Below, one piece after another: positions 9,836 to 63,916 of a stretch of DNA of 64,000 nucleotides (position 1 is its first letter; every line of letters begins with the position of its first letter). The notes beneath the pieces are model-generated. The model had not been told where the DNA came from. It saw nothing but the letters and a program-made list of their open reading frames with translations, and searched no databases. Source of the DNA: Siphonodentalium dalli. Taxonomy: Eukaryota > Mollusca > Scaphopoda > Gadilida > Siphonodentaliidae. Made by a program: the position numbers and the translations under genes. The stretch covers positions 258,581,863 through 258,645,862 of the forward strand of contig CP136064.1 in NCBI GenBank assembly GCA_032622095.1, read 5' to 3'.

Positions 9836-10030
9836 ATTAACGTACCTTTATATAGTTTATGTACCACCCCCTAAACCCCCCCACCGTACTCCACTGATGT
9901 ACCTTGATATAGTTTGCATTTATGTACCGCCCCCCACCATACACCATTATCGTATCTTGATATAGTTTGCGTTTATGTACCCCCCATATACCATTAACAT
10001 ACCTTGATATAGTTTGCGTTTATGTAGTCT
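9836..10030 (-). repeat. Tandem copies of the exon 10 end plus 5' splice site
   Basis: Read on the minus strand, the last 22-24 bases of exon 10 (ACGCAAACTATATCAAG) and the following donor recur four times, with boundaries at 10003, 9956, 9903 and 9846 (spacings 47, 53 and 57). The junctions are AAG/GTATGT (true donor), AAG/ATACGA (GT lost), AAG/GTACAT and AAG/GTACGT. Spacers are G-rich on the minus strand (C-rich on plus) and of unequal length. In the exon frame an in-phase TAA follows the true junction after GTA TGT, so use of the distal donors would stop translation at once. Confidence 0.85.
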
Positions 10031-10076
10031 GAATGGAGATTACTAGACGAAGTCAGAACAACTCTGGAATGATCGT
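10003..10076 (-). CDS. Exon 10: PTP domain, DYINA motif (last exon seen)
   Basis: The acceptor GGCTTTATTTTCTTCAG and donor GTATGT bound 74 nt (phase 1 to phase 0; residues 1486 to 1510). With the base carried from exon 9 it reads YDHSRVVLTSSSNLHSDYIN then ANYIK, the second conserved block of classical PTPs. The next block would be GY followed by FIAxQGP. I searched 1-10002 on the minus strand for that block and for the WPD loop and found neither, so the remaining catalytic exons should be left of the window. The 3' end of this exon and its donor are copied in tandem in the intron just downstream (9836-10002). Confidence 0.92.
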
Positions 10077-13000
10077 CTGAAGAAAATAAAGCCAACAAGA
10101 AAATTATGGATTGTAAAGTGATGTGGACAGGGTTCACGCACTGTCGGTGGGCAAATTGGCTAAAGGCAATTTTTTTTGGAAAATGGCCTAATAAAATTTC
10201 ATTTGGCCAAAACTTGTAAAGGCTATAAATCTTTTTTTTTTATAGGAGACTGGGAGACTCACATATATAAGATAATGCACTGGCACAGCTGGGATCTTTA
10301 ATGGTGCACTGTGCTGTGCGGCTCCCATCATGAACCCCGTGATAATACTGTTTGTGGGGAATGGAGGTTTGTGTAAGAATTTGTCTTCAAATTCACTGTC
10401 TTTGTATACAATTATACAAATAAATATATTTCAATAAAATCGAACAAACTTCCTCGTCATTTGGTGTGGGGGTTAGCAATGCCAGACGATTGTGTGTTTA
10501 TATAGAACGCTCAAGGAAATACATTTATATACATGATATACACTTACAAGCACAGCAGTCAGCGTATCTGTTCTTAGAGAAATTCTCTGGCTTCTGTGCT
10601 GCTCGACAATCCTTCGTCAATCCCGCTGGCAGATTCTGTGAAGTAAAACTAGAGGCATGACTTAGGCTGCATGACAATATAGATGTATGTCTGTTTTTAT
10701 GGGACTAAAGTAGGTATAAGGTCAGTTGTAAAGACACACCACAGCGAACTTAGGCTATATACATGTATATATAAGGGGTAGCCCTATAAACATATTTCCA
10801 ATTCGAAAACGGGAATATCTCTGCTAAAATAAGTATGAAAAACCTTGCTCACAAACACCCAGGTGCACATGCTATAAACTATAATGTTTAAAGGCTTTAT
10901 ATTGCACAATGTCACTGAAAACTATATCGAAAAGACATCATGATTGTAATTAAGACGACCCAAGTCCAATTCCGATGGCATAATAAATAAACCAGAAAAT
11001 AATTAAATAATACTACTATCGGTTCTTCGGAGAGAGGCTTAACTCCGATGACGTCAAAAGAGTTGGACAAATTAAAAACACAAATTCGGAGCCTCAGATG
11101 ACATCATTGAAGTCAGCCAATTTATTTGTCAAATATGAAAACAATAATTGACTGCGAGTGCCGTGGGTCCTTCTAAACACAGTAACAACCAATAATCGAA
11201 TTGAACACACACTCCCCAATTCCGAATTGGCTCACAAATTTGTGGGGCTGAAGCCAGGGAACTTCCAATAAAAAAGTTTAAAAGCACATTGTAACAGTTA
11301 CACCCCATCCACCACTTATCGCATTCAATGATTCATATCCATCAGTATTTATTAAGAAAATTAGCAGGGACTTGGGTTTGGGGGGGGGGGGGGGGGGGGT
11401 GTCTCCGCAACTTTGGTCAAAATTTTCAACAGTTGGAAATTTCATACCTGACACAACATTAGTTGGAAACTTCACACCAACAATAGGTTGAAAATGTTCT
11501 TGTAGATTGATTTTCAAACAATTTATTGCGGGGAATTTATTGTTTCTGGACCAATATTTGCATATTTTCCTTCTTTTGGTAAAATTTTTGGACTGAAATG
11601 GCCATCAGTTGGAAATTTTCCCTACCTTAGGGGGGTGTCAGGTTGGAAATTTCCAACACTTGGAAAGCTTGTGTCCTGGTCCCTCCCCCGTAGCCAGTCA
11701 AAAACTGCTAGTTAATTTATGAAAACAAATTGGCCTACATTTGGTCAAAATTGTCACTGGAATTGTCATCAGTTGGAAATTTTCCAACCTAAGGCGGGGT
11801 ATCAGGTTTGAAATTTCCAACTCTAGGAAGGCTTGAGGCTAGTCTAGATGCTAGGATTTTGCAATTTTCTTGTTCAGATTTCAAAAATTTTCACACACCG
11901 GGCCCAACCATGGTCGGCCCGGTGTGTCCTGGTCCCTCCCCCATAGCCAATACAAAACTGCTAATTAGTCTAAGAAAACAATATTTTACATTTGGTCAAA
12001 ATTGTGGACTGAAATGGTCAAATAGTTGGAAAATTTCCAACCTAAGGGTGAGTATTGGGTTTGAAATTTCCAACTCTAGGAAAGTTGAGGTCAATCTAGA
12101 TGCTAGGATTTTGCGATTTTCTTGTTTAGTTTTCAAATTTTCTCACACAGGGCTGAGCAATGGTCGGCCCGGTGTGCCCTGGTCCCTTGCCTTGTAGTCG
12201 TGAGCATTTGTCTGGAGTTTGACCACTAGACGTTAGGATTTATGCAATTTTCAGGTTCAATTGGAATTCCCCAAGGTGGACAAGGAGATATCATATTCCA
12301 CCAGTTTTTGAAGGCCTGACGTGGAACTTTATAACATCGAAACAATAACACAGGTACTATATATTTCAGTATATACATGTATCTATAGATACTGGTCCTC
12401 ATTAATGTACTTGACATCAGATGAAGCTCTGCAGCTCAAGATTTCATGATTTATGTGGCTTTTGTGAACCAATTTCACGATAACGTGAATTGGTTAGCCC
12501 GGGGAAAACTGTATGATCGTAAATGATGCAAAGCAAAATCGCATCACAAAAGCATCTAAATAATGTAATTTAAAGCTGGCCTTTGAAATAATGTGAAATA
12601 CATTATTTATGAAGTGGTATTTAATAAGAAATATATACCCGCGCTATTTATTCAATGTTATAATGTTTCCCGTCAGATCTTTAAAAAGTTCCCATGTTTT
12701 GAACTGGTGTAATATGATCTCCAACAGCATAGCCATATTGTCGAGATTCATGGCGTAAACCGAACAGAGGCAGAGTTCAGTCCCCTCGCTATGCTTGTCT
12801 AACTACTGCCACCACGTATACATACATAATTAAATCTAACATATTTTATGTAAGAGTTTTGTCGGCTACAATTCATTCTGATTTGATCTAGCCAATTTCC
12901 AAACGAAAAAATAATAAAATTGTTAAAAGTATGTAAAAAAATAATAATAAAAATGTAAAAATGTTAAAGAATGTAAGAACACAATTATAAAATGATAAAA

Positions 13001-16000
13001 TTGCTAAAGAATATAAGAAAAAATTATAAAAACTGTTATAGAATGTAAGAAATAAAATCTAAAAAATGATCAAAACTGTTAAAGAATCTATGAATAATTG
13101 ATAAATAACGATAAAAAATTGTTAACCAACAAACCGGCCAAAAACGCCCAAATAAAGCTTCAACAGCCTAAAATATCTTCGGTTTGTCTCAATAACACCA
13201 TACAAATATGGATATCATTGGAACCGGTTCATTGACCACATTGTGATGGTTACAGTTATGCCCTGTGCCAATGCATTCTCTTATATATGCGAGTCGACCA
13301 TAGGTCGCCTCGCATATATAAGAGAATGCATTGGCCTAAAAACATTCTTATTTTAACACTTTTTACCATTTTTTCTTACATTCTTAAACAATTTTAGAAT
13401 TTTTTCTTACATTTTTTAACAATTTTTATAATATTTTTCTACATTCTTTGACAATTTTATCATTTTTAATATGTGTTAAGCCAAAGCATTCTCTTATATA
13501 TGCGAGGCGACCTATGGTCAACTCGCATATATAAGAGAATGCATTGGCACAGGGTCTTTAATAACACACATGTTGACTTTTCTGACACAACAGTACTCAG
13601 TGGACAGTTCTGTTTCTCAGAATAATGCAAAATGAATTGCAACCGACAAAAGTCTTTAATAAAAATGTGAGATTTACTCACATTATGTGTATATGATGGC
13701 AGTGATCAGTTCAGCGTAGCAGGGGACTGAACTCTGCATTACCATTTGGGCATGATCTAGCTGAAATGTCGCAAACTGAATCTACCTCAAACTCCTGTTT
13801 GAATGTCCCCATCGCCTTCATCTTGAGCACGTGATGCCAGAGATTGGATAACTCGATGGCAGTCGAGTCACCTTTAAATGTGGAGACTGGGGCAGGTTTG
13901 TCGTCGCCGAAGATCGTTTCCAATTCATCATCGAAGTGGTTCTGTTTTCTCGACCCCGGAGTCAGGGGCATGCTATCTGCAAATCGATAGGAAAATCACA
14001 TATAGGGATTGCATTGAGGTGATCATGTGGTCTTTATTTGGATGGTGAATGCCACTGTTATAGGCATGGATACATTTTCAAAGAGTACAAATCATAAGTT
14101 TGGTACATTCTGCTTAACCCTTTCAGTGCCAGGGGCCGATCTCATCGGCCCTAATTTACGGTCTGTAAAATCGGCCCTAAAAAAATAAAAAATAAAAAAC
14201 TTTTTTTTTATATAGATTTTAAAAAAATTATTAAAATTGTAAAAAATTGTAAAAAATAATAACAAATGATGAAAAATTGTTAGGCCAATGCATTCTCTTA
14301 TATATGCGAGGCGACCATGGTCGACTCGCATATATAAGAGAATGCATTGGCACAGGGTATATGGGTTGATACAAAAATCGGACCTGGCACTCAAAGGGTT
14401 AAACAGTAAAGACATGGAAACACTTCTATAATTTAATATTGATTTTATTTAGAATTTTCTGGTATGTAACCATCAATTGTGACAAATTAAGGCTAGCGTT
14501 CATTTGGCACGTACCATGCGTGATAAATCTATCTAAATATAGTAACAAAAAAATGTCACAATTGATTATCGCATAATATAAGAAAATATCGACATACAAT
14601 CGATATTAATTGATAGATGGGACTTATATCTATAATGTTGTACCAGGAAAAATATAAAACGTGTTTAGGAAGAGAAGGACTATATTTAACATGTTTATAA
14701 TGCAGCAAACAACTGGAGCAGTTGCTGAATGGTAAAACAGCTCTGTTAGTCATTATGATTTGATTGACAGCTGTGGATAGATCTATTATGCATGCAGGAA
14801 AGCAAAGAGTTTTACCAATTTTGTTGATGGTGTCAAAGCTTTTTGACTCGACGTATCCCAATTCGCTTTTGTCTCCAGAATACATCATCTTTGATCGTGA
14901 TACCTTGCGGCTGTAATGATATGGAATTAAAGGGAATCAGTAACAGTGAAATATTCAAATAAAGCGAATAGTTTCACAATTTCTTGCAAAAGTTTCTCTA
15001 CACCACACATCCTATACATGCATCATTTACAAGGCTACAAGCCTGGATATAGTGTGTCTGAAATTTGCAGAATGAGGTCCCCAGAGGGTGAATTTAGTGA
15101 CGCTATCCCGAACAAGTAGGCTAGCATCACCAAATTCACCCTCTGGGACCGCTCAAAAACTGCTTAGCCCTCAATTCCTTGGGATACTTAGAATCAGATT
15201 GAAGTTCCCCAGTTGAAGTTGGTGATGTCCGCCCATTAGTCACCTTGATTGTGCAATTTATCTTCTGCAAATTAGTGAATATAGAAACTGAACAGAATGG
15301 AAAAAGTATTAAACTAAAACATTGTTAATTTGAAACTAGATACTTCCCAGAAGATGAAGCATAAGCCTAATGTGGTTCCAAGATATGAATTTGGTGATGC
15401 TAGCCCGCTGGGCTGGATAGCGTCACTAAATTCAACCTCTGAGGACATCATTCTGCAAATGAAACTTTACATATACCTGCTAGGAATGATTGCAAAACAA
15501 TAAGCAAATAAATTGGTGACTCTGTTCATAAATGAAATGGATCGTTTGAACATCCAACATTATGTATAAGTAATCGCATGGCCACAGATACAGTTTCGGA
15601 GGAAGTGCATTGTGCTGTTCCAATATAATGGTACAGTAATGCTCTAATTAATCGACCTCTTAACCACAGCAGAATTATGGGTAACTTTTCAGGATTTAGT
15701 CGGAAATATGGCTTGTTGCCATTCATCGGAAAGCTCTCCCCGAGAGCTTTCCGATGAATGGCAACAAGCCATATTTCCGACTAAATCCTTAAAAGTTACC
15801 CATAATTCTGCTGTGGTTAAGAGGTCGATTAATTAGAGCATTACTGTAGTTCCTTTCTGTGTTAAAATTCGGACCCATGTTCAGACTGATACGCTTCCCA
15901 ACCCTTGATGAAAGGGCTTTCTTTTTTAAGGTTGTCCCTGTAGCTGAGATGGTTATAGGTCGTGTATAAGATCATCGTAGTCGATCTGACCTATAGACAA

Positions 16001-19000
16001 GGTTGGTGTGGATTCTAACCCTGACATGGGCGAAAATTGGGACCGATTTCAAGTTTGATCTGAATTGAGGGTCTCAATATGCCCTTCCGATCGATACATG
16101 TCCATTTGATAAGAATGATAATTTGTTCACAATCACTGAAGCAAGCACATTTGAAGCAATGGACTCTCATACATACTGAGTCCATATGCCTCCATGCATA
16201 ACTCTGGAATCTGTAATTTGGAAGGAGACGATAAGTATACATGAAATATCCATCTACATATATACACTGAAGAAACATGCCAAAGTCATAACAGGTGTCC
16301 GCTGTCTTCAATATTTGTAGAGCAGAGTGAGAAATTTAAAACGCTCTTTATTTCTCACCATATCATGAACAGACTAACAAGGAACGCTCTAAGGCCAAAA
16401 AAAAAAAGGGTTCTGATTCTCAGGCAATTGTTTTTGAGAATCGATGAGGGAGCGAGGGTTTTATTTTTATTTTTTATTTTTGTTATGGGGATAATGCCCA
16501 TAGTTAGCATGGGTTATTATACCTTCCCAGGTTAAGAAAATGTATGGAGAACATTGTTTTGATATAAACTAATATATTCCACAAGAATGACCAATTATCA
16601 CATTTTCTCAGTGGGTTTCTCATCCCACACTGGCAGTTCGCCGATAAACAGCTTTTTCCTGAGCTGGCCTAGGGTAAGATCTTTCTCAACGTTGTAGATG
16701 GACAAGTCTACTGACGTTTTATCACCTGTTGTCACATTTAATGGGATGAGCCTATTTGAATTTCTAATATTGTTTCGTAACAACCATGTTTAATAACAAC
16801 AAACAGAACTAAATACCCGGTTCAATTACTCAAATAAAAATACGGAACGTGAATACAATCGAAACGAAAAGATATAGTGATCTTCATAGAAAGTCTAGAA
16901 TGACTTATTCTGCCGTATCTGAATAAGTTTTATGTACCTCAATACATGCTAGCCATAAAAACTTCAAATACTATTATATTAAACCAGCATACACATCGCC
17001 AATACGCACCATATTTCTTTCCGGTTTGCATTCCCGAAATTGGAAATCTCAGAATTGTTTACCGCACGAAAAGTGGGTTATCTACCTTTCGAATTGATAA
17101 AATGCCGAAATATTTGAACACATTTGACTTAATAAACTTGGGGTTTGGGCAGCTTTTGGTGACAATATACCTGGTAGTTATCGTTGCCTAGTGTCTGTTT
17201 TGAATACCAACACATACACCATTGTATGTCTATCATATTCGATGTTTGAAACATAACTAATTTCTGTTTTCTAGTTTCCTATTTTCGTGTTATCATTTGA
17301 CAGCTTCGGTCAAATTGAAAATCATAATAAAACGGTTCAACGCGGGCCTTTTTTCCAGACGCGGCTATGCCCGAGAATCAATACCCTTTTTTTTTTGGCC
17401 TAATAATAACTATTTTTTTTATTTTAGAGTTTGCTCGGTCACAACTCATTCTGCATTATTCTGAGAAACCGAACTGTCTATATTCATATTTAAATTAATT
17501 GGCTAGATCAAGCCAGAATGAATTGTATCCGACAAAACTCTTGAATAAAAAATGTTAGATTTAATTAAATGTATACTGTATATACATGATGACAGTGGTC
17601 AGACCACCATAGCGAGGGGACTGAACTCTTCCTCGCATTTTGCTCTGACAACTGCCATCACGTATACAAACCATAAGCCGATCTTACATTTTTTATTTGA
17701 CCTTTGACCAAAGTTAGGGGGACCTGTCGCCATGTCCCTGTTTCTGAAGCATCGACATCTCTCTTATATTATCACTTACCAAATAAAGAATATAATGCAG
17801 GCGAGTACGAGAAGGAACAGAATCCCTCCAGCGGCGGCGGCGATGATTGTGTATTTAGGAGACTTGGTGTGACCCTCATCCTCAACTTGTCCTGTTAAAA
17901 TTACAGTAATCTTCCAATTAAATTAATGAAAAATATAAAAACTAATTGTGGTAGCAAGAATTATGTTCCTTTATTTTATGGCTTAAACATGTGATTGTGA
18001 TGCAAAAATGTCCGAAATAAGAGATTTTCGGAACCATGGGACACAAAACAAGATGGCTTTTAGCATGACTATACCACTGTTGGCTAAAACGTAAAAGAAC
18101 AATGTTTCCTCGTACAAATATAAAAAAGTTCGTCACCATTTTGGATTTAAAATAAATCGGTTTTCGTAAGATGAAAAGTTTTATTAGCCAAGATGTCATT
18201 TCAGTATCTAGAGACACTGTTTTGCAGAAATCGCTACTGCCTGATGTGGTTGGTGTCACTTTCACCTGAAATTGTTTTTTTTCAAAACTCAAAGAGATCC
18301 TATAAATATCCACATGTTCAAAACTAACCTTCTCTCAAAAACTGGTACTCTGTTATAAAAATATACAACTGCTGATCATTCGAAACAGTAGAATGTGATC
18401 GTATATCGACAAAACTCACCTGATGATATGCATGCACCATCCATGTCACATTTCCCTCCACCACAGCTGTCACTACAAGTGGAATTACAGAATTCACCGA
18501 AGAAACCATCAGCACAGCCTCCGATACAGGACCCGGTTACTCCATTACAAGCGACCTTGCAATTCTTTTCACATTCGTGCTGGCATTGTGGACCGAAATA
18601 TCGATCGATGCACCCATTTGTGCACATACCATCCATTCCCGAGCAACTTGATGGTCCGTTGATACCGGCGGTGCAACCAGGACTGCAATCAAATGCACAC
18701 TTAAGACCAAACTTTCCATCAGTACATCCAACCAAACAATTGCCGTTGTTCCTGGCGCAGATTTGTGTCCCGTTAATTCCAGTCGCACAGCCATGACTAC
18801 AATCGAGTTCACACTCAATACCAAACTTTCCACTGATACAGCCTGCCAAACATGTGCCATTGTCCCTGGCGCAACTCATTGTTCCGTTAATGACGGCGCA
18901 CCCAAGACTGCAATTGAGTCCACATTTGAGACCAAACTTTCCATCAACACATCCTTGTAAACACGTGCCGTCGTCCCTGGCACAGATTGGTGTCCCGTTA

Positions 19001-22000
19001 ATGGCAGCACAACCAAGACTGCAATCGTGTCCACATTCAAGACCATACTTTCCACCAATACAGCCTGCCAAACATGTGCCATTGTCCCTGGTGCAGCTCA
19101 ATGTCCCGTTAACGATGGCACACCCAAGACTGCAATCATGTCCACATTCAAGACCAAACTTTCCATCAATGCAACCTTTTAAGCAACTGCCGTCGTCCCT
19201 GGAGCAGCTCGGGGAGCCATCTGTAGTTAGAATGCACCCGGTGTTACAATCCATATCACAAACTGAGCCATATGTGTTATTCTTGCATCCGGCTTTACAT
19301 TCCCCATCATTTTGTGCACAAATGCCATCTATGCAATTATCACTACATGCCTGATCACACAAATCACCAAAATAACCATTCATACAAGTATTGCATTTCA
19401 TATCAGTATCAGATACACCATCACACGACTGACACGTTTGTGGGCATGAGTTGTTGCAAAATGCTCCAAAATAACTCACATTACACCGGAGACACACCGA
19501 GCCGTCCTTATCACACTCGAGGCAATTGGGATTCAAGTCAGTACAACTGTCGTTACACTGGTCTCCATAATAAGCTAGTTCGCAGTCATTATTACATGCA
19601 CCATCTATAGGACAACTGAAGTTTCCGAGGCAATGACGCTCGTTGCAGTCAGACGAACATATTGGGTCATAAGCATCGTTATTACAAGAAAGACAGTCTC
19701 CAGTTGTCATGTTACAAGTTTTGCAATTGTCGCACTGATTAGAACAGTCTATTCCAAACACACTATCTGCGCATGACAAGCATTTACCAGAATCCTTATC
19801 GCAAGTTTCGCACAAACATTCCTCTGTACAATCTGGGGAGTACCATCCATTTTCACAAGTGTCGCACTCTCCGTCCATAGAACACGTGTCGTTACTGAGT
19901 TTGCAGTGTCTATATGAACAAGGCGTGTCACAAGATGGGCCGTAGAACTCTGATCTGAGGCAGGATGAACATATTCCTGTGTCTCGACCACAAGTGACAC
20001 AATCGTCGCACCTCTGATCACATCTCATGTCAAAGAATCCGTCCTTACATTGTTGACACACACCACTATTTTGGTAACAACTGAGGCATTTGTCGGGACA
20101 CTTTCGCATGCAGTCAAACCCATACCATCCTGGTTGACATTCACCTAAACAGGAACCATCCATGTTGCAATTGTCATCGGGGATTGCACAATGCCTCTCT
20201 GAGCAATTCTTGGAACAGTCGAATCCGTATGAACCATTATTGCATGCGATGCACGTGCCATCGACCTTGTAACATGTAGTACAAGGGTCACATGAATTGG
20301 CACATTGATCGCCATAGAAACTAGGTAAACATTCCTGACACACTCCATCAGTTTGGTTGCATTCAACGCAAGATTTTGGACATTCACTGGAACATGTTAT
20401 TCCGAACCATCCGGGCTGGCAGTGATCACAGCGACCATCCATTGAGCATGCATCGGTTGCATTGTCCAAGAACATGCAGTGTCTCGCAGTGTTGTTGCAG
20501 AGGAAGTCGCAGTCTCTACCGTAAAGGCCACTGGCACATGTATCACATGTTGCAGTATCCTGATTACATGACTCGCAGTTCAGAGGGCAAATGTGTGTAC
20601 AGCTGAATCCCGTCCAACCATCGTGGCAACCGGAAAGGCAATTTCCAATATCATCACAGTCTGATTTGTCGGTGCAATGGCGGCTTTCGTTGTAACAGTT
20701 GAATGTGCAATCTTTGCCATAATATCCAACTGAACAGACATCACAATATCCCATAGATTGTGAGCATTGTTTACAGTTTCCGAAACATTCCGCTGAACAA
20801 TTTAGTCCCCAATAACTCGATTCACAGCCACTGAGACATGAACCTTCCAAGTCACATTCACTCTTATCCAAGCAATGTCTGTCGGTTGAATTACATACAT
20901 ATTGACATGAGTCTCCATAGTAACTGAGTTGACACCCGAGGCAGTCGCCGGTCACTTGGTCACAAGAATCGCAATTGACATCACATGGTAGAGAACAGTT
21001 TTTGGCATACCAACCATCCGTGCAGTTTCCATGACAAGAGCCATCGTTCATACATGTTGATTGGTCGGCACAATTATAGGCAGTGCTGTTGCAGAACTGA
21101 TCGCATTTGCTCCCATAGAGACCATCAGTGCAATCTTTACAATCTCCGGAAACTTTATTACAGGTGGAGCATTTCGAATCACATGACGTCATACAATCGA
21201 CTCCATAGTAGCCATCGACACAGACTGCACAGAATCCGTCATCGGAACATGCAGCACTCCGAGTAGCTTTACAATGTCTGTCTTTGCAACGCTTAGAACA
21301 TCCAGTCATTAAGTCGAACATACCACGAGTACATGCCATACATTGCTGTGTTACTTGGTCACATTCACGACAACCCGTGCCGCATTTCTGTGTGCAATCT
21401 ACACCCGTCCGCCCAGATATACAACCAAACTCACATGTCCCATTTCGATCACATGTATTGGTCAGAATTGAGCATTCCCGATCCTCGCAATCAGCAGAAC
21501 AGTCCGGTCCGTATAATCCAGGCATGCATTCTTTGCATTCCAGAGTGCCTGGATCACATGATTTGCACCGATCTTTGCACTGAACTGTACAATCAATCCC
21601 ACTCCACTGATCTGCGCAGCCGGTCGAACAGACTCCGTTGTATTTACATGATGCGATGTTCTTGGAACAATGTCGAGAAATACACTCACGTGTGCAATTG
21701 CTTCCATAAAATCCAGATAAGCATCCTGCAACATAATGAGTTTTAATAGAGTGTGTTCTGTATTAAAGGCACGGGCGGCGTTCATTGCAGAAATATTCAT
21801 ATTTTTTCAAATCGCCATCAACAGAAGGAATATTAAAATATATATTGTTTTGTTCATATGCCAAACATAATCAGCGCGTAAATATTATATTGTCGTCAAG
21901 ACGTACGATGGTGTACGTAAACAAGAGCCTGCTCGTGTTACAGAAGTTGTGCTTCTGTTTACATAACACAGCGCAATTCTATTGGTTAATCACATACAAA

Positions 22001-58000: not shown

Positions 58001-58614
58001 TACACAAAACATTAAAGGGACACCCACACCCCGTATTAAAGCTCTTGGGCTCTTCCCCATAAATCATTCGATTCAACTTTTGCCGCGTTCGGACATGACG
58101 ATTTTCTATGTTCAGATATCCTCAAAACAACAAATCGTGGGGTGAAGGAGAAGATCACTCGATCTTTTCGACCACCCCGGGCGCTTCGCGCCCAACCACT
58201 GTCCTCCTGCCTTGGTGGGTTTGGTGGAAGTTATGGAAATATTCTTTAGAAACACTTCTTTAAATATTCACCGTTATTAAGTCAATGTTATCCTAGATTA
58301 CTCTTTAAAACACTTCTTCTCAGTCAATTTTAAAACTCGATGAATCCTAAGATCAATATTAACATATCTTGATTTAAAGACATATCATGTACTCGTTCCG
58401 GTGCGAAAAACTGGTAAGTTAGTACTCAGGTGCTGTGCCAACTGGAGGAATGTAGCATTCTACTAACATCACTGAAAATCTCAAGCAAATCGACCGTACT
58501 AGTCCATAGAAAACATTGTCTGAACTACGCTAAATTGTAAATATTTACTACTCGAATCGGGACGCTTCTATCGGCAATAAACTAACGAAAAGAGAGAGAG
58601 AGAGAGAGAGAGCG

Positions 58615-58689
<75 letters not shown>

Positions 58690-61600: not shown

Positions 61601-63916
61601 ACCCGCCATATCAAATCCAGTCGTAAGTCGGGATTTATTTTACCCTGTGCCAATGCATTCTCTTATATATACGAGTCGACCATATGTCGCCTCGCATATA
61701 TAAGAGAATGCATTGGCCTAACAATTTTTTATCATTTTTTTAAATAAATGTTTCTAACAATTTTTAGGACATAAAATAAAAAACATCCATTACCCTGCAG
61801 GGAGCCCCACACATATATAGAAGCATATAGAAGAGTGTCGTCTGCTCATGTTTGTATGGGCTCTGTATGGGTGAAATTATAAAATTGTTAAAGAATACAA
61901 GAAAAAATTATTAAAATTGTAAAAAATTGTTAGGCCAATGCATTCTCTTATCTATGGTCGACTCGCATATATAAGAGAATGCATTGGCACAGGGTAAAAA
62001 AAATCCCGACTTACGACTGGATTTGATATGGCGGGTCACATATATCAAAATTAATGAGTGTTTATCTCACTTCTGCGCGAACATTCGAAAACAGCTGGGA
62101 AAATATCCATGACATTGGCAACTGTGTTAAAGGGGGACTGCACACTAAATCCGGCCATTATGGGACCATCTCCTTTATACTCAACATAATATATGCAACA
62201 AAAGAATGGATTTGAGCCATGGATTAGTGCAATATACACTCATGTGCTCTATATGAACAATACAACAGCACGGTAATTATAATGAAAATGACACGAATCA
62301 TAAACTCATTTTCATTATAATTACCGTGTTGTTTTACATCGTTCACAGAGCACATGAGTGTATTTTTGCACAAATCCATGACTCAAATTCATTCATTTGT
62401 TGCATATATTCTGTTGAGTATAAAAGGAGATGGTCCCGTAAAATGACCGGATTTTGTGTATATCACCCATCTAAGAGTATATACAGCCTATATACAAATC
62501 GGTACTTTGTGAATTTATAGATTTGTCGACTTATTATTCCTTCAGAATACCAATTTCAGTCTAATTTGCGATTGAAGGGAATCTTGGTCTGAAACGACAT
62601 TTTTTTTACACTAAATATTGGTTGGAAACTCTCACTATTGGAACAGTCCTATTTTGTCTTAATTTGAATTGAAAACTGTTGCTTATTTAGTCAAGAAATT
62701 TCCAACTTTTGAAAATTTGGTTCAATGTTGCGTGTAAAAGATACCAAAGCCCACTGGTTTTAGTTTAAACATATTTTATTGTATCATTTATGTACAAATG
62801 GGATTGGGGCACAAGTTATACAACTTAGATAGCCCCTCTCCCCACTGGTATGACGTAGACGACGAGCGTGGGGAGTCAGCAAAACAATTCAGGATACAAG
62901 GTTGAATTTTTGGCTTTCTAAATTTTGGAACCCACGAACGCATTTTGTTTGCAAGGGAAATTGGGATCCACCTCAAAGTTGAAAACAGCAGGGCAAGGCA
63001 GACGGATCCACCCCTTGATATTGTTATAAAAGATCAAATATTTGGTAAATATTGAAACTGGGAACCCTCTTCATTTGATTAATGCTCTATTTTGTCCCAG
63101 TTTATAAGCCTAAACATTTATACTCGTTTTAGTAGTCATAATTTGTCTTTGAACATGGATTTGGAAAAACATTTATCCATGGCATTTCAAGAATCTGCGA
63201 TTGGGGCCTCAGTCATACCCACCCACATGAACCTTGTGCCGATGCATTCTCTTATATAAGCGAGTCGAAAGCAAAGCATTTCCTTTAAGTTCAGACTGGT
63301 ATATGTTTTACCAACCATAGATTCATGGTCACTAGTCCATTAGCAATGTCAAACCTCCATATATTTCTGAGGACAGCTTTAACAATATACCAATTCAGGA
63401 CATTCAGCATACTTGTTACCATTGTGTGAGTTTGACTCCTTGTGATTTGAATCCATGTAACTCGTATTCGTTCCTCAACCAATCTCTGATTAATATCATG
63501 TATAACGTATTGCATGCACAGTGTACTCAATACATAAAACATGGATCAATGCTATGTCATTCTTGTTACTAGTGTCTTTATTCACACAGTCCATACTCTT
63601 AAAAAAGAACATAAATAAACCCAAATTATAAAGCCATTATTGGAATTTTGCACTACTCAAAACCAAATCCTATATAGTTGAAAATGTTATTAGACCAAAT
63701 CCTATATAGTTAAAATGTTATTAGACCAAATCCTATATAGTTGGACATTTTATGGTCTCACCCCCAGTTGGAACCCCCTAGCAACGCCCTTGAAAATATG
63801 GTATGGTATGGTAAAACGGATATCCACTCACTTGTTGTCTGCCCAAACGTGAGATCAAAACTCAGCAGAAATAATCCAGATAGAAGAAAGAAAGTAATCA
63901 CTGTTGGTGTCCCCAT
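10003..63916 (-). CDS. Receptor-type protein tyrosine phosphatase with discoidin-like and multiple EGF ectodomain (10 exons, 3' part off window)
   Basis: Ten exons join in one frame (85+156+195+228+3306+112+95+191+88+74 nt = 1510 codons) with phases 1,1,1,1,1,2,1,0,1,0. The product reads: signal peptide, EGF-like module, F5/8C or fucolectin-like domain, a roughly 1100-residue EGF array, one membrane helix, an acidic juxtamembrane segment, then the N-terminal part of a PTP domain with KNRY and DYINA motifs. Phosphatases of this class remove phosphate from tyrosines at the plasma membrane; the ectodomain should bind ligand or matrix (inference). The rest of the catalytic domain, including HCSAGxGRTG, is not in 1-10002 as far as I can see. 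Extra phase 1-1 exons could hide in the long introns without breaking the frame. No symbol is assigned because the ectodomain architecture matches no named vertebrate PTPR that I recognise. Confidence 0.85.
10077..10547. other. Intron between exons 9 and 10
   Basis: It contains a half hairpin module near 10255-10284 (CATATATAAGATAATGCAC) related to the 67-bp family. No exon was found. Confidence 0.6.
10548..10635 (-). CDS. Exon 9: PTP domain, KNRY motif
   Basis: The acceptor TTACTTCACAG and donor GTAAGT bound 88 nt (phase 0 to phase 1; residues 1457 to 1485 plus one base). It reads NLPAGLTKDCRAAQKPEN then FSKNRYADCCA. The order FExLPxGLT, PEN, KNRY is the first conserved motif block of classical tyrosine phosphatases, where KNRY forms part of the phosphotyrosine-recognition region. 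The exon is too short to show up as an open frame with its own methionine. It was found by searching for PTP motifs between splice sites. Confidence 0.9.
11160..12250. repeat. Degenerate tandem duplication of about 250 bp
   Basis: CCTGGTCCCTCCCCC occurs near 11671 and 11929 with a diverged copy near 12178, and GCTAGGATTTTGC near 11848 and 12100, a period of roughly 250 bp. Units contain TTGGAAATTTCCAAC-like motifs and a GC-rich hairpin ACCGGGCCC...GGTCGGCCCGGT (11896-11921). A G homopolymer of about 18 bases is at 11381-11398. Confidence 0.65.
12768..13740. mobile_element. GGCAGAGTT-family element with a nested hairpin element
   Basis: The left end AGGCAGAGTTCAGTCCCCTC is matched by GCAGGGGACTGAACTCTGC at the right end. 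Inner arms match around GTCGGCTACAATTCATTCTG and its inverse near 13630. The hairpin element 13268-13547 sits inside, so it inserted later. The right end lies about 45 bases from the donor of exon 8. Confidence 0.75.
13268..13547. mobile_element. Short element bounded by two inverted 67-bp hairpins
   Basis: Modules 13268-13334 and 13481-13547 are inverse to each other, with CCCTGTG and CACAGGG outside. The interior is A/T-rich (TTTTTCTTACATTCTTT units). It is a third size class of the family (280 bp, against about 440 bp and 1.3 kb). Confidence 0.8.
13786..13976 (-). CDS. Exon 8: acidic juxtamembrane region and N-terminal PTP wedge
   Basis: The acceptor CGATTTGCAG and donor GTAGAT bound 191 nt (phase 1 to phase 0; residues 1393 to 1456). 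The first part is polar and acidic (FDDELETIFGDDKPAP). The second part, IELSNLWHHVLKMKA then GTFKQEFE, follows the helix pattern that precedes receptor PTP catalytic domains (LxxxVxxMKxxG-F-xEEF) and leads directly to the LPAGL of exon 9. An open frame runs past the donor into the intron, but the splice site and the match with exon 9 argue that it is not used. A foldback repeat starts about 50 bases beyond the donor. Confidence 0.85.
14100..14405. mobile_element. Inverted-repeat element with one central-type hairpin module
   Basis: The ends AACCCTTTCAGTGCCAGG (14114) and CCTGGCACTCAAAGGGTT (14383) are inverse repeats. One 66-bp hairpin module lies at 14285-14350, with A/T-rich sequence between. 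Confidence 0.7.
14816..14910 (-). CDS. Exon 7: stop-transfer and juxtamembrane segment
   Basis: The acceptor ATCATTACAG and donor GTAAAA bound 95 nt (phase 2 to phase 1). Its first base completes the TGC cysteine codon begun in exon 6, and the following RKVSRSK is a basic stop-transfer signal. The rest reads MMYSGDKSELGYVESKSF and on to NKI (residues 1362 to 1392). Two tyrosines in polar contexts could be phosphorylation sites (inference). The phase match to exon 6 is what selects this exon over the exon-like ORF at 16598, which does not fit the frame with a convincing acceptor. Confidence 0.8.
15045..15465. repeat. hAT-like foldback family fragments
   Basis: GCAGAATGAGGTCCCCAGAG (15068), AAATTCACCCTCTGGGA (15129) and diverged pieces at 15370-15455 belong to the family seen intact at 33617-33870. 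They lie in the intron between exons 6 and 7. Confidence 0.7.
15634..15846. mobile_element. CAGTA-type foldback MITE with TA flanks
   Basis: 213 bp, nearly the same layout as 5137-5349, with arms CAGTAATGCTCTAATTAATC and inverse. TA lies on both sides, and the centre AAAGCTCTCCCCGAGAGCTTT is a perfect turn. Confidence 0.88.
16391..17403. mobile_element. Putative 1-kb element with inverted ends around an exon-like ORF
   Basis: The left end AAGGCCAAAAAAAAAAAGGG followed by TTCTGATTCTCAGGC is matched in inverse at 17367-17403 (GCCCGAGAATCAATACCC then TTTTTTTTTTGGCC). Inside is a minus-strand open frame (16598-16783). No transposase was recognised. The structure is inferred from the ends only. 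Confidence 0.5.
16598..16783 (-). CDS. Unassigned exon-like open frame
   Basis: The minus-strand frame ends in TGA and contains GDKTSVDLSIYNVEKDLTLG then QLRKKLFIGELPVWDEKP, a natural-looking mix of charged and hydrophobic residues. A TGACAACAG precedes GDK and could be an acceptor, but its phase (1) does not fit exon 6 (phase 2). An AATAG acceptor a little upstream would fit phase 2 but has no pyrimidine tract. It could be an alternative last exon giving a receptor without phosphatase, an exon fragment carried by the element 16391-17403, or chance. I do not recognise a family. Confidence 0.25.
   Translation of the reverse strand: MLRNNIRNSNRLIPLNVTTGDKTSVDLSIYNVEKDLTLGQLRKKLFIGELPVWDEKPTEKM
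17780..17891 (-). CDS. Exon 6: transmembrane segment
   Basis: The acceptor TTTTAACAG and donor GTAAGT bound 112 nt, entering in phase 1 and leaving in phase 2. The peptide is GQVEDEGHTKSPKYT followed by a hydrophobic stretch IIAAAAGGILFLLVLACIIF and FIC (residues 1339 to 1361), a single membrane helix preceded by a polar stalk and followed in exon 7 by RKVSRSK. The orientation is therefore type I: EGF array outside, phosphatase inside. The GC-rich alanine codons stand out against the AT-rich introns. Confidence 0.88.
17892..18419. other. Intron between exons 5 and 6
   Basis: About 530 bases with no repeat or exon that I recognise. The 123-codon minus-strand open frame at 17942-18313 lies wholly in this intron, has no domain signal, and is treated as chance. 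Confidence 0.6.
18420..21725 (-). CDS. Exon 5: giant single-exon EGF-like array
   Basis: The acceptor TTATGTTGCAG and donor GTGAGT enclose 3306 nt with no stop (1102 codons, phase 1 at both ends, residues 222 to 1323). The sequence is an unbroken series of cysteine-rich EGF and laminin-EGF-type units of the MEGF/SCARF kind, with motifs such as GLYGPDC, CDQVTGDC, GWYGFDC and recurring RHC. Two zones are visible. The N-terminal two thirds has alternating units that pair into supra-repeats of about 60-70 residues. The C-terminal zone (about 18600-19240) has roughly seven closely related units of about 38 residues (GKFGLECGHDCSLGC type), most with NGT sequons. Overlapping open frames on both strands here are by-products of the cysteine-rich composition. 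The role is presumably extracellular adhesion or ligand binding (inference). Confidence 0.92.
21770..22210. repeat. Dispersed element, second copy at about 60200-60730
   Basis: Shared blocks include TTAAAGGCACG, AACGCTCTTTATTA, CCATATCAGGAA and TTTCTGTTTATGGCGGTTTT. Both copies contain CACCGCCA near the end. It lies just upstream (minus strand) of the EGF exon acceptor. Related GCTCTTTATT fragments occur at 16340 and 54700. Confidence 0.65.
22270..24140 (+). mobile_element. Pearl-like element with about 160-bp units and direct flanks
   Basis: From about 22740 to 23985 some eight units repeat GTAAAATCCAAGATGGCTGC, AAAATGACTCGTTCCCATCT and CATGACAAATTTCATAATGA at roughly 160-bp spacing, ending in ACACACACACGGACGACGG. 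A block with AATCGGAAATCTAATTAAAA lies on both sides (22321 and 24101) in direct orientation. Open frames in the units are repeat-derived. Confidence 0.8.
24530..25340 (+). repeat. Left arm of a large inverted structure
   Basis: Blocks such as CTAAACTCGAAAATTTGAAG, ACATATCCAAAATCCGCT and GGCGCTTTGTCTTAAAATGG recur in inverse at 27790-28620. Block order is circularly permuted between the two arms. Confidence 0.75.
26586..27319. mobile_element. Putative TIR element of 734 bp
   Basis: CGTCGCATCAGTGCTATAAT at the left is matched in inverse by ATTATAGCACTGATGCGTCG at the right, both followed by AAAT/ATTT. Related inner motif ACGACATT(A/T) repeats. No ORF of note. It lies between the arms of the larger inverted structure. 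The adjoining 25341-26585 and 27320-27790 show nothing I recognise. Confidence 0.6.
27790..28620 (-). repeat. Right arm of the large inverted structure
   Basis: Inverse copy of the blocks at 24530-25340, starting (minus strand) with GTCAGAGGGTTAGACCC and running to GGCGCTTTGTCTCAAAATGG. It ends about 170 bases from exon 4. Four short direct repeats of GGGGAACTTACTTATG follow at 28622-28747. Confidence 0.75.
28794..29021 (-). CDS. Exon 4: C-terminal half of F5/8C (discoidin/fucolectin-like) domain
   Basis: The acceptor TTTATTTTCAG and donor GTGAGT bound 228 nt (76 codons, phase 1 at both ends; residues 146 to 221). After joining it reads DLTLLTNFKVIIS, then SAVCY, DVQCDHG, ISGRYMVIQTQG and LQFCEAMAYS. 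This follows the family pattern of a strand near LxNFxV, two cysteines, a GRYVxVQ strand and a closing LxLCEVEVYG. Together with exon 3 it makes a domain of about 140 residues, normal for F5/8C modules that bind glycans or lipids in other proteins. Ligand specificity cannot be read from the sequence. Confidence 0.85.
29509..29657. mobile_element. Foldback element, 149 bp
   Basis: Arms CTACAACTCGTCCCCAGTTT and AAATGGGGACTCGTAGTAG are inverse, with TAGGTCCGGACCT near the middle. A single related arm lies at 57676-57710. It is followed directly by the CAGTA-type MITE at 29662. Confidence 0.75.
29662..29846. mobile_element. CAGTA-type foldback MITE, shortened
   Basis: TA-flanked, 185 bp, same arms as 5137-5349 but with one arm missing part of its middle. 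It abuts the foldback at 29509-29657. Confidence 0.8.
29850..32600. other. AT-rich intron stretch
   Basis: Contains a TA microsatellite (30210-30227), TTAATTAATTAATTAA at 30421, short direct repeats of GTAGCTTTATTAGGT (31161-31197), and several TGACGT/ACGTCA half sites (31150-31280). A 153-codon minus-strand open frame at 32041-32502 has no recognisable domain. No exon of the host gene was identified. Confidence 0.5.
32604..32743. mobile_element. Foldback element, 140 bp
   Basis: Arms GTTGTCGCTTAAACTGTTTA and TAAACAGTTTAAGCGACAAC pair, continuing through TGTCCG...CGGACA and GGCATCTATTGG...CCAATAGATGC with a small mismatch. No coding content. Confidence 0.85.
32907..33300. mobile_element. GGCAGAGTT-family foldback element
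   Basis: GCAGAGTTCTGTCCCCTCG at the left is matched by CGAGGGGACATAACTCTGC at the right, with weak similarity between. Same family as 541-803 and 12768-13740. Confidence 0.75.
33617..33870. mobile_element. hAT-like foldback element, copy 1
   Basis: Inverted ends CAAGCCTTGAAATAGGGTGT run on through GCAGAATGAGGTCCCCAGAG. A central direct repeat of the same block (33750) gives three block copies. It lies 80 bases downstream of exon 3 (minus strand). Confidence 0.88.
33950..34144 (-). CDS. Exon 3: N-terminal half of F5/8C (discoidin/fucolectin-like) domain
   Basis: The acceptor TTTTTGTAG is followed by 65 codons starting in phase 1 (residues 81 to 145). The motif string NLLRQKKTN, then FVSKLAVEG, TTSCIKT, DDPWWYVDM and FLRIYSLK matches the usual run NLALxKPA, ASxAVDG, TxSC, DPWWxVDLG and IxIYNR of mollusc and echinoderm F5/8C-like domains. 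The reading frame into exon 4 requires the exon to end at 33950 in front of GCAGGT, a GC donor. The nearby canonical GT at 33945-33944 would leave phase 2 and break the frame. The exon sits between two hAT-like foldback elements (33617-33870 and 34327-34628). Confidence 0.78.
34327..34628. mobile_element. hAT-like foldback element, copy 2, with 8-bp target duplication
   Basis: Ends CAAGTCTTGAAATAGGGTGT and inverse, with internal block repeats. The octamer TCTCTCAC stands at 34319-34326 and again at 34629-34636. An 8-bp duplication is the signature of hAT transposition (family knowledge). It lies 182 bases upstream (minus strand) of exon 3. Confidence 0.9.
34688..34759. mobile_element. Single arm of a CAGTA-type MITE
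   Basis: AGGATTTAGTCGGAAAAATT leading to GAGCATTACTG and TA matches one arm of 15634-15846. The other arm is absent. Confidence 0.75.
35788..35990. mobile_element. Foldback element with ATGCATGCGG arms
   Basis: GATGCATGCGGCTATCG (35819) pairs with CGATAGCCGCATGCATC (35948), with further pairing GTTAGGCGCAA to TTGCACCTAAC and outer AAGCTGCTT to AAGCAGCTT. The stretch 34760-35787 shows no gene or clear repeat. Confidence 0.75.
36083..37005 (+). repeat. 54-bp minisatellite, about 17 units
   Basis: Unit: CAGTACATTCATCTCCTATT, AGTCGGGCTGCAGGGGTCAC, TCACACCAACTC plus two or three variable bases (CA, AA or CC variants). Because 54 is divisible by 3 the array stays open in two plus-strand frames (236 and 108 codons). 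The resulting peptide is a pure repeat and no gene signal surrounds it. Confidence 0.95.
37360..39010 (+). mobile_element. Pearl-like element with diverged, about 160-bp units
   Basis: GTGACCTCATTTGAACAAAT recurs near 38681 and 38841 (160 bp apart), with older copies at 37590-38060. Units include AAATATGAACCCATTTGG. The array ends in GGACGGACGGACGGATGGAC and a tail with GCGCCACCGGAGAC. It has the same architecture as 1860-2705 and 22740-24010. Confidence 0.75.
39040..39350. repeat. Short tandem and inverted GGGTTTGAAAATGTGC repeats
   Basis: CACAGGGTTTGAAAATGTGC occurs twice (39057 and 39087), with a partial third at 39116, and inverse copies near 39305-39345 (AGCACATTTTCAAAACCTGT). It lies just left of exon 2. 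Confidence 0.7.
39421..39576 (-). CDS. Exon 2: single EGF-like module
   Basis: The acceptor TTTTCCAG precedes the exon and the donor GTGAGT follows it; both ends are phase 1 and the length is 156 nt (52 codons). The peptide begins NGFNCSEGLF once joined to exon 1, contains CYKCNC and CDEQSGTC, and closes with GYAGPTCQM, the cysteine and glycine spacing of an EGF-like fold. It contributes residues 29 to 80. In multi-EGF receptors with an F5/8C-like module it is common for one EGF to precede that module, which fits the order here. It is separated from exon 1 by 24 kb in which other symmetric 1-1 exons could be hidden, although I saw none. Confidence 0.8.
40052..40142. repeat. Precursor-like hairpin with a perfect 22-bp stem
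   Basis: GGGAGATAACTGAACATCTC at 40069 pairs without mismatch with its complement ending at 40125, and pairing resumes outside (GTCCAAG/CTTGGAC, CAGTG/CACTG). The loop is 13 bases. It could be an inverted duplication of a common repeat or a small-RNA precursor. Confidence 0.6.
40294..40596 (-). pseudogene. LINE ORF2 C-terminal remnant
   Basis: The minus-strand frame reads QYKNSFFVKTIIEWNHLE near its end. The pattern YxNSFFxRTIxxWNxLP is the conserved C-terminus of CR1/jockey-like ORF2 proteins. Upstream part NYTVTLTPRSKNKRKI is diverged. It belongs with the piece at 41900-42497, so the element was broken by later insertions. Confidence 0.6.
41430..41880 (+). repeat. Dispersed element, copies at 55940-56344 and 58370-58590
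   Basis: Blocks GCCAACTGGAGGAATATAGC, CTCAAGCAAATCGACCGT and ACTACTCGAATCGGGACGC recur at 58437-58565 (plus) and in inverse at 56140-56300. The 3' part with GGAGTGTTTCACATCAC recurs in inverse at 55960. It inserted between the two LINE remnants. Confidence 0.75.
41900..42497 (-). pseudogene. LINE reverse-transcriptase 3' region, degenerate
   Basis: The minus-strand frame contains LEKWVNSKCYTMSTKNKS, then QLDNHILQSVDEKPYLGL and NNLTWSSHI. This is the familiar RT thumb pattern WxxxxNxxKCxxM, xGxxLxxVxxxxYLGxxxxxxLxWxxHI. Further down, RKIVEALVPP resembles the next block. Frames shift and stops intervene, so it is not functional. Together with 40294-40596 it marks one decayed element. Confidence 0.65.
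42559..43022. mobile_element. Foldback element, about 460 bp
   Basis: GTCATTGTCGAATGGTTTCG at the left mirrors CGAAACCATGCGACAATGAC at the right. Inner arms contain repeated AAAAAGACACCCAGGATC and inverse, and AGTCTGCTATTAATATT near the centre pairs with AATATTAATAGCAGACT. Confidence 0.85.
43023..44867. other. Intron, small inverted pair only
   Basis: AGAGATTATCACTTCACTGT at 43310 has an inverse partner at 43685-43715 (CACTGTAGTGATAATCTCT), giving a possible 410-bp element. A short palindromic CGGATCACGATACTATCATG stretch is near 43533. No exon was seen. Confidence 0.5.
44868..44975. mobile_element. Palindrome, arms about 50 bp
   Basis: TTCGAGGTTGACATGAGGAT pairs with ATCCTCATGTCAACCTCGAA, continuing through TTATCAACCC and GGAAGTTAATATTCACCG to a short centre GGCATGCAGTT. 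A G homopolymer of about 20 bases lies shortly after, at 45057-45076. Confidence 0.88.
46093..46518. mobile_element. Double-hairpin MITE, copy 2
   Basis: TGTGACCCGCCATATTAAAT to its inverse. Hairpin modules lie at 46146-46212 and 46432-46466, the second having lost its loop and upper stem. The interior is as in 61597-62040. Confidence 0.88.
47278..47555. repeat. Imperfect CAT/CGT trinucleotide microsatellite
   Basis: About 280 bp of ATC/GTC-type triplets give open frames on both strands (runs of Asp, Met, His, Ile). It directly abuts the TTAA-flanked MITE at 47561. Confidence 0.92.
47561..48029. mobile_element. TTAA-flanked foldback MITE, copy A
   Basis: 469 bp with ends AGGTACTCA and inverse, and long inner inverted blocks around AAATATTTGATTCGAGTCGA and CTCGACTCGAATCAAATATT. 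TTAA stands at 47557-47560 and 48030-48033, a piggyBac-like target. Copy B (60979-61447) is inverse and nearly identical. A half copy is at about 50325-50480. Confidence 0.88.
48455..48610. mobile_element. Foldback element, about 155 bp
   Basis: GAGGATCTCACATGAGTTTC... and ...GAGTGTGAGATACCTTTTA pair imperfectly, with inner arms TTTATCAACC and GGTTGATAAA and a tight centre GAGCCGAGGTTTACCGAGGCTC. Confidence 0.7.
48790..49640. repeat. Tandem array (ACGTTATCCTATCCTATATA) split by inserted palindromes
   Basis: Units of roughly 55-60 bp containing GTGTGCATCATAATACATAA and CGTTATCCTATCCTATATAA occupy 48790-49018 and 49320-49640. The 300 bases between are two unrelated foldbacks. Confidence 0.85.
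49018..49325. mobile_element. Two adjacent foldbacks nested in the tandem array
   Basis: The first: GGATATCCACACTTTTTCAG (49020) pairs with CTGAAAAAGTGTGGATATTC (49158) around ACGAGTGG...CCACTCGT. The second: GTATATAATA/TATTATATAC ends with ACTTGCC...GGCAAGT arms and a centre CTCACTAGTGGGATATCAC. Confidence 0.75.
50085..50275 (+). repeat. CCGCGTTAACCCGTCGAT minisatellite
   Basis: Six units of about 30-36 bp share GTCCTGGTCCGCGTTAACC and CGTCGAT with C-rich linkers of varying length. It is GC-rich compared with its surroundings. A related single CCCGTCGATCTC is at 50715. Confidence 0.85.
50323..50480. mobile_element. Truncated relative of the TTAA MITE
   Basis: TTCTTTGGCTTCGGTCGTAA, GATTCGAGTCGAGGAACCCA and AGATATTGATTTTTGAAAT match one arm of 47561-48029. 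The other arm is missing. 50481-51340 shows no supported feature. Confidence 0.75.
51340..51405. repeat. Short hairpin
   Basis: TGTTCAGATAATAAGTT (51347) pairs with AACTTATTATCTGAACA (51386) with a loop of about 22 bases. The arm also resembles AAATGTTCAGATACCAAGTT at 44039. Function unknown. Confidence 0.6.
52022..52830. repeat. About 480-bp duplication with ATTCCGAAGGT clusters
   Basis: Two blocks, each with several CTATTCCGAAGGTTC units (52055-52110 and 52532-52645) followed by TTTTAGGTTAATTCTATATT, AGAGGGTTCATT and TGTTTTCG...GGTTTTCTTGAG. The second block is the more decayed. Confidence 0.8.
53260..53780 (+). repeat. Tandem array, about 130-bp unit
   Basis: AAATTTGATACCTATGGGTA recurs at about 53271, 53403, 53532 and 53670. 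Each unit carries GACGGGTCAAATC, TGACCTTGACCTTCAA and GGTAAAACGGA. Four units. It lacks the GGACGGACGG tail of the pearl-like arrays but has a similar style. Confidence 0.85.
55940..56344 (-). repeat. Inverse copy of the 41430-41880 element
   Basis: TGATGTGAAACACTCCGGTA and GGTTGGCATAGCGCCTGAGT are inverse to blocks at 41800 and 41485. Near-complete length. Fragments AAAAGCTGGCTAC (three times, 56377-56450) follow, with inverse GTAGCCAGCTTTT pieces at 55240-55320. Confidence 0.75.
58370..58590 (+). repeat. Truncated copy of the 41430-41880 element
   Basis: AAAGACATATCATGTACTCG to AATAAACTAACGAAAA matches the 5' half. The copy stops where the GA microsatellite begins. Confidence 0.8.
58589..58685. 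repeat. GA microsatellite
   Basis: About 48 GA dinucleotides with one GCGAGCGA interruption. The minus-strand Ser-Leu open frame across it is spurious. Confidence 0.97.
59745..59915 (+). repeat. Single arm of the 62141-62460 palindrome family
   Basis: TTTTCATTATAATTACCATG, ATCCATGACTCAAATTCATT and GAGTATAAAAGGAGATGGTC follow the same order as the right arm at 62306-62440. Confidence 0.8.
60200..60730. repeat. Dispersed element, second copy of 21770-22210
   Basis: Shares TTAAAGGCACGTGAGGC-like start, AACGCTCTTTATTAGTTCCA, GAACGCTCTTTGTGTTTACC and TTTCTGTTTGTGGCGGTTTT with the copy beside the EGF exon. Confidence 0.65.
60979..61447. mobile_element. TTAA-flanked foldback MITE, copy B
   Basis: 469 bp, inverse to 47561-48029 and nearly identical to it. 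TTAA stands at 60975-60978 and 61448-61451. A 61-codon stretch is the same in both copies, as expected for recent copies of a non-coding element. Confidence 0.88.
61597..62040. mobile_element. Double-hairpin MITE, copy 3
   Basis: TGTGACCCGCCATATCAAAT to its perfect inverse. Hairpin modules lie at 61650-61716 (full) and 61935-61986 (left arm shortened). The interior has AAACATCCATTACCCTGCAG and GAAGCATATAGAAGAGTGTC. Confidence 0.9.
62141..62460. mobile_element. Large palindrome, arms about 150 bp
   Basis: AAATCCGGCCATTATGGGAC pairs with the region ending ATGACCGGATTT. Inner arms include GACCATCTCCTTTATACTCA and GAGTATAAAAGGAGATGGTC, and TAATTATAATGAAAATGA and inverse, around a 16-base centre. 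A single arm copy is at 59745. Confidence 0.9.
62461..63831. other. Start of intron 1
   Basis: Mostly unremarkable. A half hairpin module is at 63238-63268 (GATGCATTCTCTTATATAAG), and three direct repeats of CCAAATCCTATATAGTT with TGTTATTAGA are at 63663-63743. No further exon was recognised. Confidence 0.6.
63832..63916 (-). CDS. Exon 1: start codon and signal peptide
   Basis: The peptide MGTPTVITFFLLSGLFLLSF continues as DLTFGQTT, a typical signal peptide with a long hydrophobic core and a probable cleavage site near FG/Q. The exon ends with one base of a split codon at a GTGAGT donor (phase 1). I chose the ATG at 63916-63914 because it has G at -3 and G at +4 and puts the hydrophobic core close to the N-terminus. 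A second in-frame ATG at 63946 would add ten residues in a weaker context. Only 84 bases lie upstream, so the promoter and the 5' end of the transcript are not visible. A TTCTCAG just upstream could be an acceptor if a 5' leader exon exists. Confidence 0.75.

Follow-up and report, generated by a model that had tools for sequence, protein, structure and literature searches.

Here we report a predicted gene on the minus strand of contig C4 of the scaphopod Siphonodentalium dalli (G000; assembly of 2.23 Gb in 9 contigs), which begins within the 64,000-nucleotide stretch of DNA that was analysed (hereafter the window, G000:C4:258581863-258645862) and ends to the left of it. The spliced model comprises 23 exons over ∼82.5 kb, with 6,036 nt encoding 2,011 residues and a single stop at the end, and its introns are GT-AG in 21 of 22 cases and GC-AG in the other. 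In order, the predicted protein consists of a signal peptide, one EGF-like module, a NedA-type galactose-binding (F5/8C-like) domain, ∼1,115 Cys-rich residues, one membrane helix and two protein tyrosine phosphatase (PTP) domains. We consider it likely, with a probability of about 0.85, that the gene is complete and encodes a receptor tyrosine phosphatase of the MEGF/galactose-binding-domain type with two phosphatase domains.

A preliminary description of the window had linked ten exons into such a receptor without listing their coordinates, which we obtained by an edge search followed by splicing. All ten were recovered as a linked series on the minus strand from 63916 to 10003, with matching phases at every junction, no internal stop and splice signals throughout, the donor being GC for the exon at 34144-33950 and GT elsewhere. 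The ten exons are thus present, but they do not make up the whole receptor, as PTP coding continues past 10003 through two more exons in the window and eleven to the left of it (Table 1).

Table 1. Exons of the predicted receptor phosphatase gene and the tandem unit within its array exon; positions are those of the window unless a contig is named.
Feature	Position	Strand	Description
Exon 1	63832..63916	-	Start codon, then hydrophobic N terminus resembling a signal peptide (MGTPTVITFFLLSGLFLLSFDLTFGQT), judged by eye; out phase 1
Exon 2	39421..39576	-	One EGF-like module, from its Cys pattern alone; phase 1-1
Exon 3	33950..34144	-	First half of galactose-binding (F5/8C-like) domain, found by motif, with domain match; phase 1-1, GC donor
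Exon 4	28794..29021	-	Second half of galactose-binding domain; phase 1-1; relatives 65% identical at C5:73620636 and C5:74011308
Exon 5	18420..21725	-	MEGF array, single 3,306-nt exon; phase 1-1
Tandem unit	18669..19210	-	111 bp (37 residues), 4.9 copies, within array
Exon 6	17780..17891	-	Transmembrane helix; phase 1-2
Exon 7	14816..14910	-	Juxtamembrane; phase 2-1
Exon 8	13786..13976	-	Juxtamembrane and start of PTP region (IELSNLWHHVLKMKAMGTFKQEFE); phase 1-0
Exon 9	10548..10635	-	PTP D1, KNRY motif
Exon 10	10003..10076	-	PTP D1, DHSRVVL...SDYINANYIK
Exon 11	9231..9267	-	PTP D1, GYERDQTYISAQ; beyond the range of the preliminary description
Exon 12	6401..6498	-	PTP D1, GPTVDTVDDFLKMLWQ...; beyond the range of the preliminary description
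Exons 13-23	C4:258580757 down to 258563253	-	Left of window; end at stop codon

The least secure parts of the gene model are exons 1, 2 and 3, for which no homologue was confirmed: the 1.5 kb before the exon 4 counterpart at the nearest paralogs held no relative of exons 1-3, and exon 2 matched array units only. The same paralogs confirm exon 4 (29021-28794; 65% identical, with the same starting residue) and the array exon. Exon 20 (-13305 to -13433, negative positions lying left of the window) ranked top of 18 splice-flanked candidates with a score of 42, the next that was not an overlapping variant scoring 30 and the highest in four control stretches of ∼5.5 kb scoring 31; a YFP-containing stretch at -10991, considered as the missing D2 exon, was dropped in favour of this better candidate. 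An acceptor-like candidate at 16725 was also dropped, as the phase does not need it. For exon 16, three copies of its start were seen (-6904, -6817 and -5450), of which the one that continues into a full exon was chosen.

Short local direct copies that include a splice border were observed at four exons (three donors, one acceptor), at 9877-10026 and 6328-6435 in the window and at -6817, -5450 and -8378 to the left of it. An enrichment of tandem duplications at exon borders was ruled out, since the four borders in local repeats, among 44 from 22 exons with the outer ends of the first and last included, are close to the background of 10.8% of bases in this DNA, which is rich in repeats. Between exons 2 and 3 the window also contains an intronic 54-bp minisatellite (36082-37003; 97% matches over 17.1 copies), which gives rise to long plus-strand open reading frames because 54 is a multiple of 3. 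A repeated palindromic element with ATTCTCTTATATATGCGAG arms (13275-13327, 13488-13540, 14292-14343, 46153-46205 and others) looks like a small inverted-repeat transposon, and exact matching gives 13 copies of the arm across the window. A remnant on the minus strand at 42152-42493 (..KPYLGLTFTSTNNLTWSSHI) resembles the tail of a LINE reverse transcriptase by eye, with nothing above cut-off in Pfam; of six other open reading frames in the window, three had no Pfam match and three had matches under cut-off only.

When spliced, the F5/8C-like domain (34144-33950 joined to 29021-28794) is matched by the NedA-like galactose-binding family of Pfam, PF22633, with an E value of 1.6e-5. The alignment takes in positions 2-88 of the 91 in the profile, and its 25.8 bits fall a little short of the curated cut-off (27.8). 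The match to PF00754 is weak, with 16.8 bits against a cut-off of 28.2. The EGF-like stretch holds 198 Cys in 1,115 residues, mostly from the array exon, with recurring CxxGxxGxxC-type motifs. Against Pfam EGF-type families the array had no match at cut-off (EGF_TEN 17.8 bits, cut-off 65; DSL 17.3 bits, cut-off 24.2), so that the label “EGF-like” rests on the Cys pattern and motifs. Neither the array (E up to 0.001) nor the second galactose-binding half (E up to 5) had a match in sequence searches of the PDB, and an NCBIfam search of two proteins likewise returned none. The window array aligns with the arrays of its paralogs over 951 of 1,101 codons, and is probably longer because the 111-bp unit has expanded, four units by eye amounting to 148 residues.

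Between the array and the phosphatase region, hydropathy identified one phase-consistent helix exon, the sole candidate in the 40 kb scanned. The array exon ends in a phase-1 donor, which is compatible with the phase-1 acceptor of the helix exon 528 bp on. Classical receptor PTPs are marked by the active-site motif HCSAGxGRTG, the WPD loop and KNRY. Extension to the left, proposed in the preliminary description as the way to find the WPD and HCSAGxGRTG exons, located both, and exons in the same region also encode KCEQFWP. The first phosphatase domain (D1) has intact KNRY, FTAWPDHGVP and HCSAGIGRTG motifs, the last across the junction of exons 14 and 15 with an intron between HC and SAGIGRTG; the corresponding motifs of the second domain (D2) are WPE and HCMNGADRCG, from which D2 looks degenerate. 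The spliced PTP part (535 residues, without exon 20) matches PF00102 at 399 bits in three stretches and PTPRF (6kr4) at 238.3 bits in the first stretch, and its identity as a phosphatase is therefore not due to chance.

The best PDB sequence matches of the PTP region are PTPRF/LAR, PTPRS and PTPRA. LAR-type (R2A) phosphatases such as PTPRF and PTPRS are likewise single-pass proteins with tandem PTP domains, but differ in that the D2 of the window gene appears degenerate; their ectodomains are built of immunoglobulin and fibronectin modules. The phagocytic receptors MEGF10, MEGF11 and Draper resemble the window gene in combining a long Cys-rich EGF-like array with one helix, but their tails are short, with tyrosine motifs, and are not known to hold phosphatase domains. 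The statement in the preliminary description that vertebrate receptor PTPs mostly use other modules agrees with a review of receptor PTP ectodomains, in whose main text, by term search, “EGF” is absent (PMC10815196).

Relatives of the array exon occur at many places in the genome (at least 89 matches, with 42 of 238 candidates scored). We merged 43 of the 89 into 37 loci, leaving out those that we took for additional fragments of loci in the set, and related them to 149 PTP matches from at least 152 (150 of 344 candidates scored) within a limit of 120 kb that we chose. Among the matches listed, a PTP lies downstream on the same strand within this distance, with no array locus between, at 15 of the 37 loci (window included), and with another array locus between at three, while 19 have no downstream PTP. 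A PTP on the opposite strand within 120 kb was found at one of the 37, and one upstream on the same strand at 10, a count confounded by tandem arrays, again among the matches listed. Such a tandem array of family loci lies at C5:43.8-45.3M, and one member, at C5:44.2M, has a TM-like segment after the array exon. By eye, the order galactose-binding domain, array and PTP on one strand recurs at C5:43.82M and C5:242.38M (150 of 215 galactose-binding candidates scored). The same order is found at C5:80.54M, where, however, array and PTP are separated by a second galactose-binding match (80643161), which makes the link doubtful, and the PTP may belong to another gene. Galactose-binding and array matches with no listed PTP within 120 kb occur at C3:247.66M, C3:248.75M and C3:224.93M. 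In a set of 49 PTP matches drawn from at least 82 (81 of 231 candidates scored), which are exon places and not gene counts, the catalytic exon is covered in 47, including the window gene itself and two matches with long open frames (C9:171.6M and C1:245.7M), and borders lie near those of the window gene's exon in 39. No PTP neighbour of the window gene on C4 was present among the matches listed.

The nearest relatives of the ectodomain are at C5:73.62M and C5:74.02M, where, among the matches listed, the arrays are 68% identical to that of the window gene; both loci also show 65% identity to its second galactose-binding half, for which no other match was obtained at E up to 0.001 with all 27 of 27 candidates scored. 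By the Nei-Gojobori method, pairwise dN/dS of the window array against these two paralogs is 0.173 and 0.174 at a dS of 1.06-1.08, with synonymous sites near saturation, and the low values are consistent with purifying selection on the array sequence. Between the two relatives dN/dS is 0.364 at a dS of 0.026. The arrays of these MEGF/galactose-binding loci (C5:73622828 and C5:74019065) are 97.8% identical to each other.

At neither relative was a PTP present among the matches listed (81 of 231 candidates scored), and the 40 kb downstream at C5:73.62M held no PTP match and no helix exon of the right phase, whereas the same scan finds exactly one helix exon in the window gene. Array and PTP therefore need not go together, as judged from these matches and this 40-kb interval. 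The same observations would fit a model with two adjacent genes, in which exons 1-5 encode a MEGF/galactose-binding protein, either secreted or in the membrane, and the exons from the helix onward belong to a receptor PTP of its own with another upstream exon. We regard this as improbable, since the array donor and helix-exon acceptor agree in phase across 528 bp, 14 other loci among the matches listed have array and PTP linked on the same strand, and the same fusion has been annotated in Biomphalaria sudanica (PMC12297450). Slightly less probable still is that the gene is a decaying duplicate, open in appearance yet either not expressed or without function. Although local tandem duplications touch four of its splice borders, such a proportion (4 of 44) is near background, no internal stop interrupts the 6,036 nt of the reading frame, D1 retains its catalytic motifs, and dN/dS of the array is 0.17.

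The complete receptor phosphatase gene thus remains our preferred reading, and a further suggestion concerning its relatives is more tentative. One ectodomain type, galactose-binding domain plus long MEGF array, might be carried on different ends within this genome, with a phosphatase in the window gene and neither phosphatase nor helix found so far at its nearest relatives; we think this unlikely. If true, it would parallel, in an invertebrate, the paired or decoy receptors of immunity, with one recognition head that either dephosphorylates inside the cell or serves as a soluble or otherwise signalling partner.

The preliminary description was correct on the type of receptor, a PTP with a MEGF and discoidin/galactose-binding-type ectodomain whose catalytic exons have now been found, but its view that the role of such proteins is not described is outdated. 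According to the sections of the article used here, Pennance et al. (2025) describe MEGF, galactose-binding domain, single helix and tandem PTP as a clustered family in B. sudanica, with a link to schistosome resistance from a GWAS (PMC12297450). In their SudRes1 region, MEGF domains are encoded by 10 of 23 genes, three of which combine extracellular MEGF and galactose-binding domains with one helix and an intracellular PTP; 14 further such genes were annotated in B. sudanica, 13 of them clustered nearby, and both of the validated resistance variants are intronic, in two of the MEGF/GBD receptor PTP genes (PMC12297450). Those authors propose ligand-controlled phosphatase signalling for the snail receptors, and alternatively that resistant snails, having lost EGF domains, might lack a host molecule needed by the parasite; they leave causality open (PMC12297450). 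Parts of two other molluscan studies touch on similar proteins. In the eastern oyster, more than 40 receptor PTPs were reported higher in circulating agranulocytes than in granulocytes, and 20 transcripts of the PTP category were higher in circulating than in mucosal agranulocytes, several of them named as EGF-like-domain proteins (PMC13070813). In a vent snail genome, MEGF and fucolectin are named among the expanded immune families, and the abbreviations given for the same figure include PTPRK (PMC7895826).

Taking the snail side from its published description, the window gene has in common with the SudRes1 receptor PTPs the extracellular MEGF and galactose-binding domains, the single helix and the tandem PTP, and clustering of paralogs is also shared, here by the family (C5:43.8-45.3M). 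The SudRes1 region also holds other MEGF and MEGF/GBD genes (PMC12297450). An antistasin-like gene lies beside each of the three SudRes1 receptors, whereas none of 44 PF02822 matches fell on C4 or C5 (150 of 180 candidates scored), and a neighbouring antistasin gene was rejected on this count as a common feature; it does not define the SudRes1 type of receptor. Several antistasin matches at G000:C3:68632574-68714997 and C3:68779316-68782123 precede by ∼64-147 kb a MEGF array locus with no listed PTP within 120 kb. The genome analysed here is represented by 9 contigs, and the B. glabrata assembly used in the snail study by 18 chromosomes (PMC12297450). As described in the sections cited, the architecture and its proposed immune role are already known, and the window contributes a complete additional member; the gene looks like a complete representative of a known but barely studied family.

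How such a receptor might act can be outlined. The ectodomain would bind glycans or glycoproteins, whether on microbes, on other cells or in the matrix, and ligand binding or clustering would alter the access of D1 to phosphotyrosine substrates, with D2 as a putative regulatory or docking domain. The receptor could in this way tune kinase signalling in the cell that carries it, which may be an immune or adhesive cell and most plausibly a haemocyte. A coupling to phagocytosis or adhesion, as in the preliminary description, is a conjecture.

Schistosome resistance in a vector snail was linked to this architecture in 2025 (PMC12297450). An intact member in a second large genome, together with many related loci, would show that it is not a peculiarity of Biomphalaria. 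The complete gene model, and a change in array length by units of 37 residues, provide a basis for testing whether these receptors are recognition molecules.
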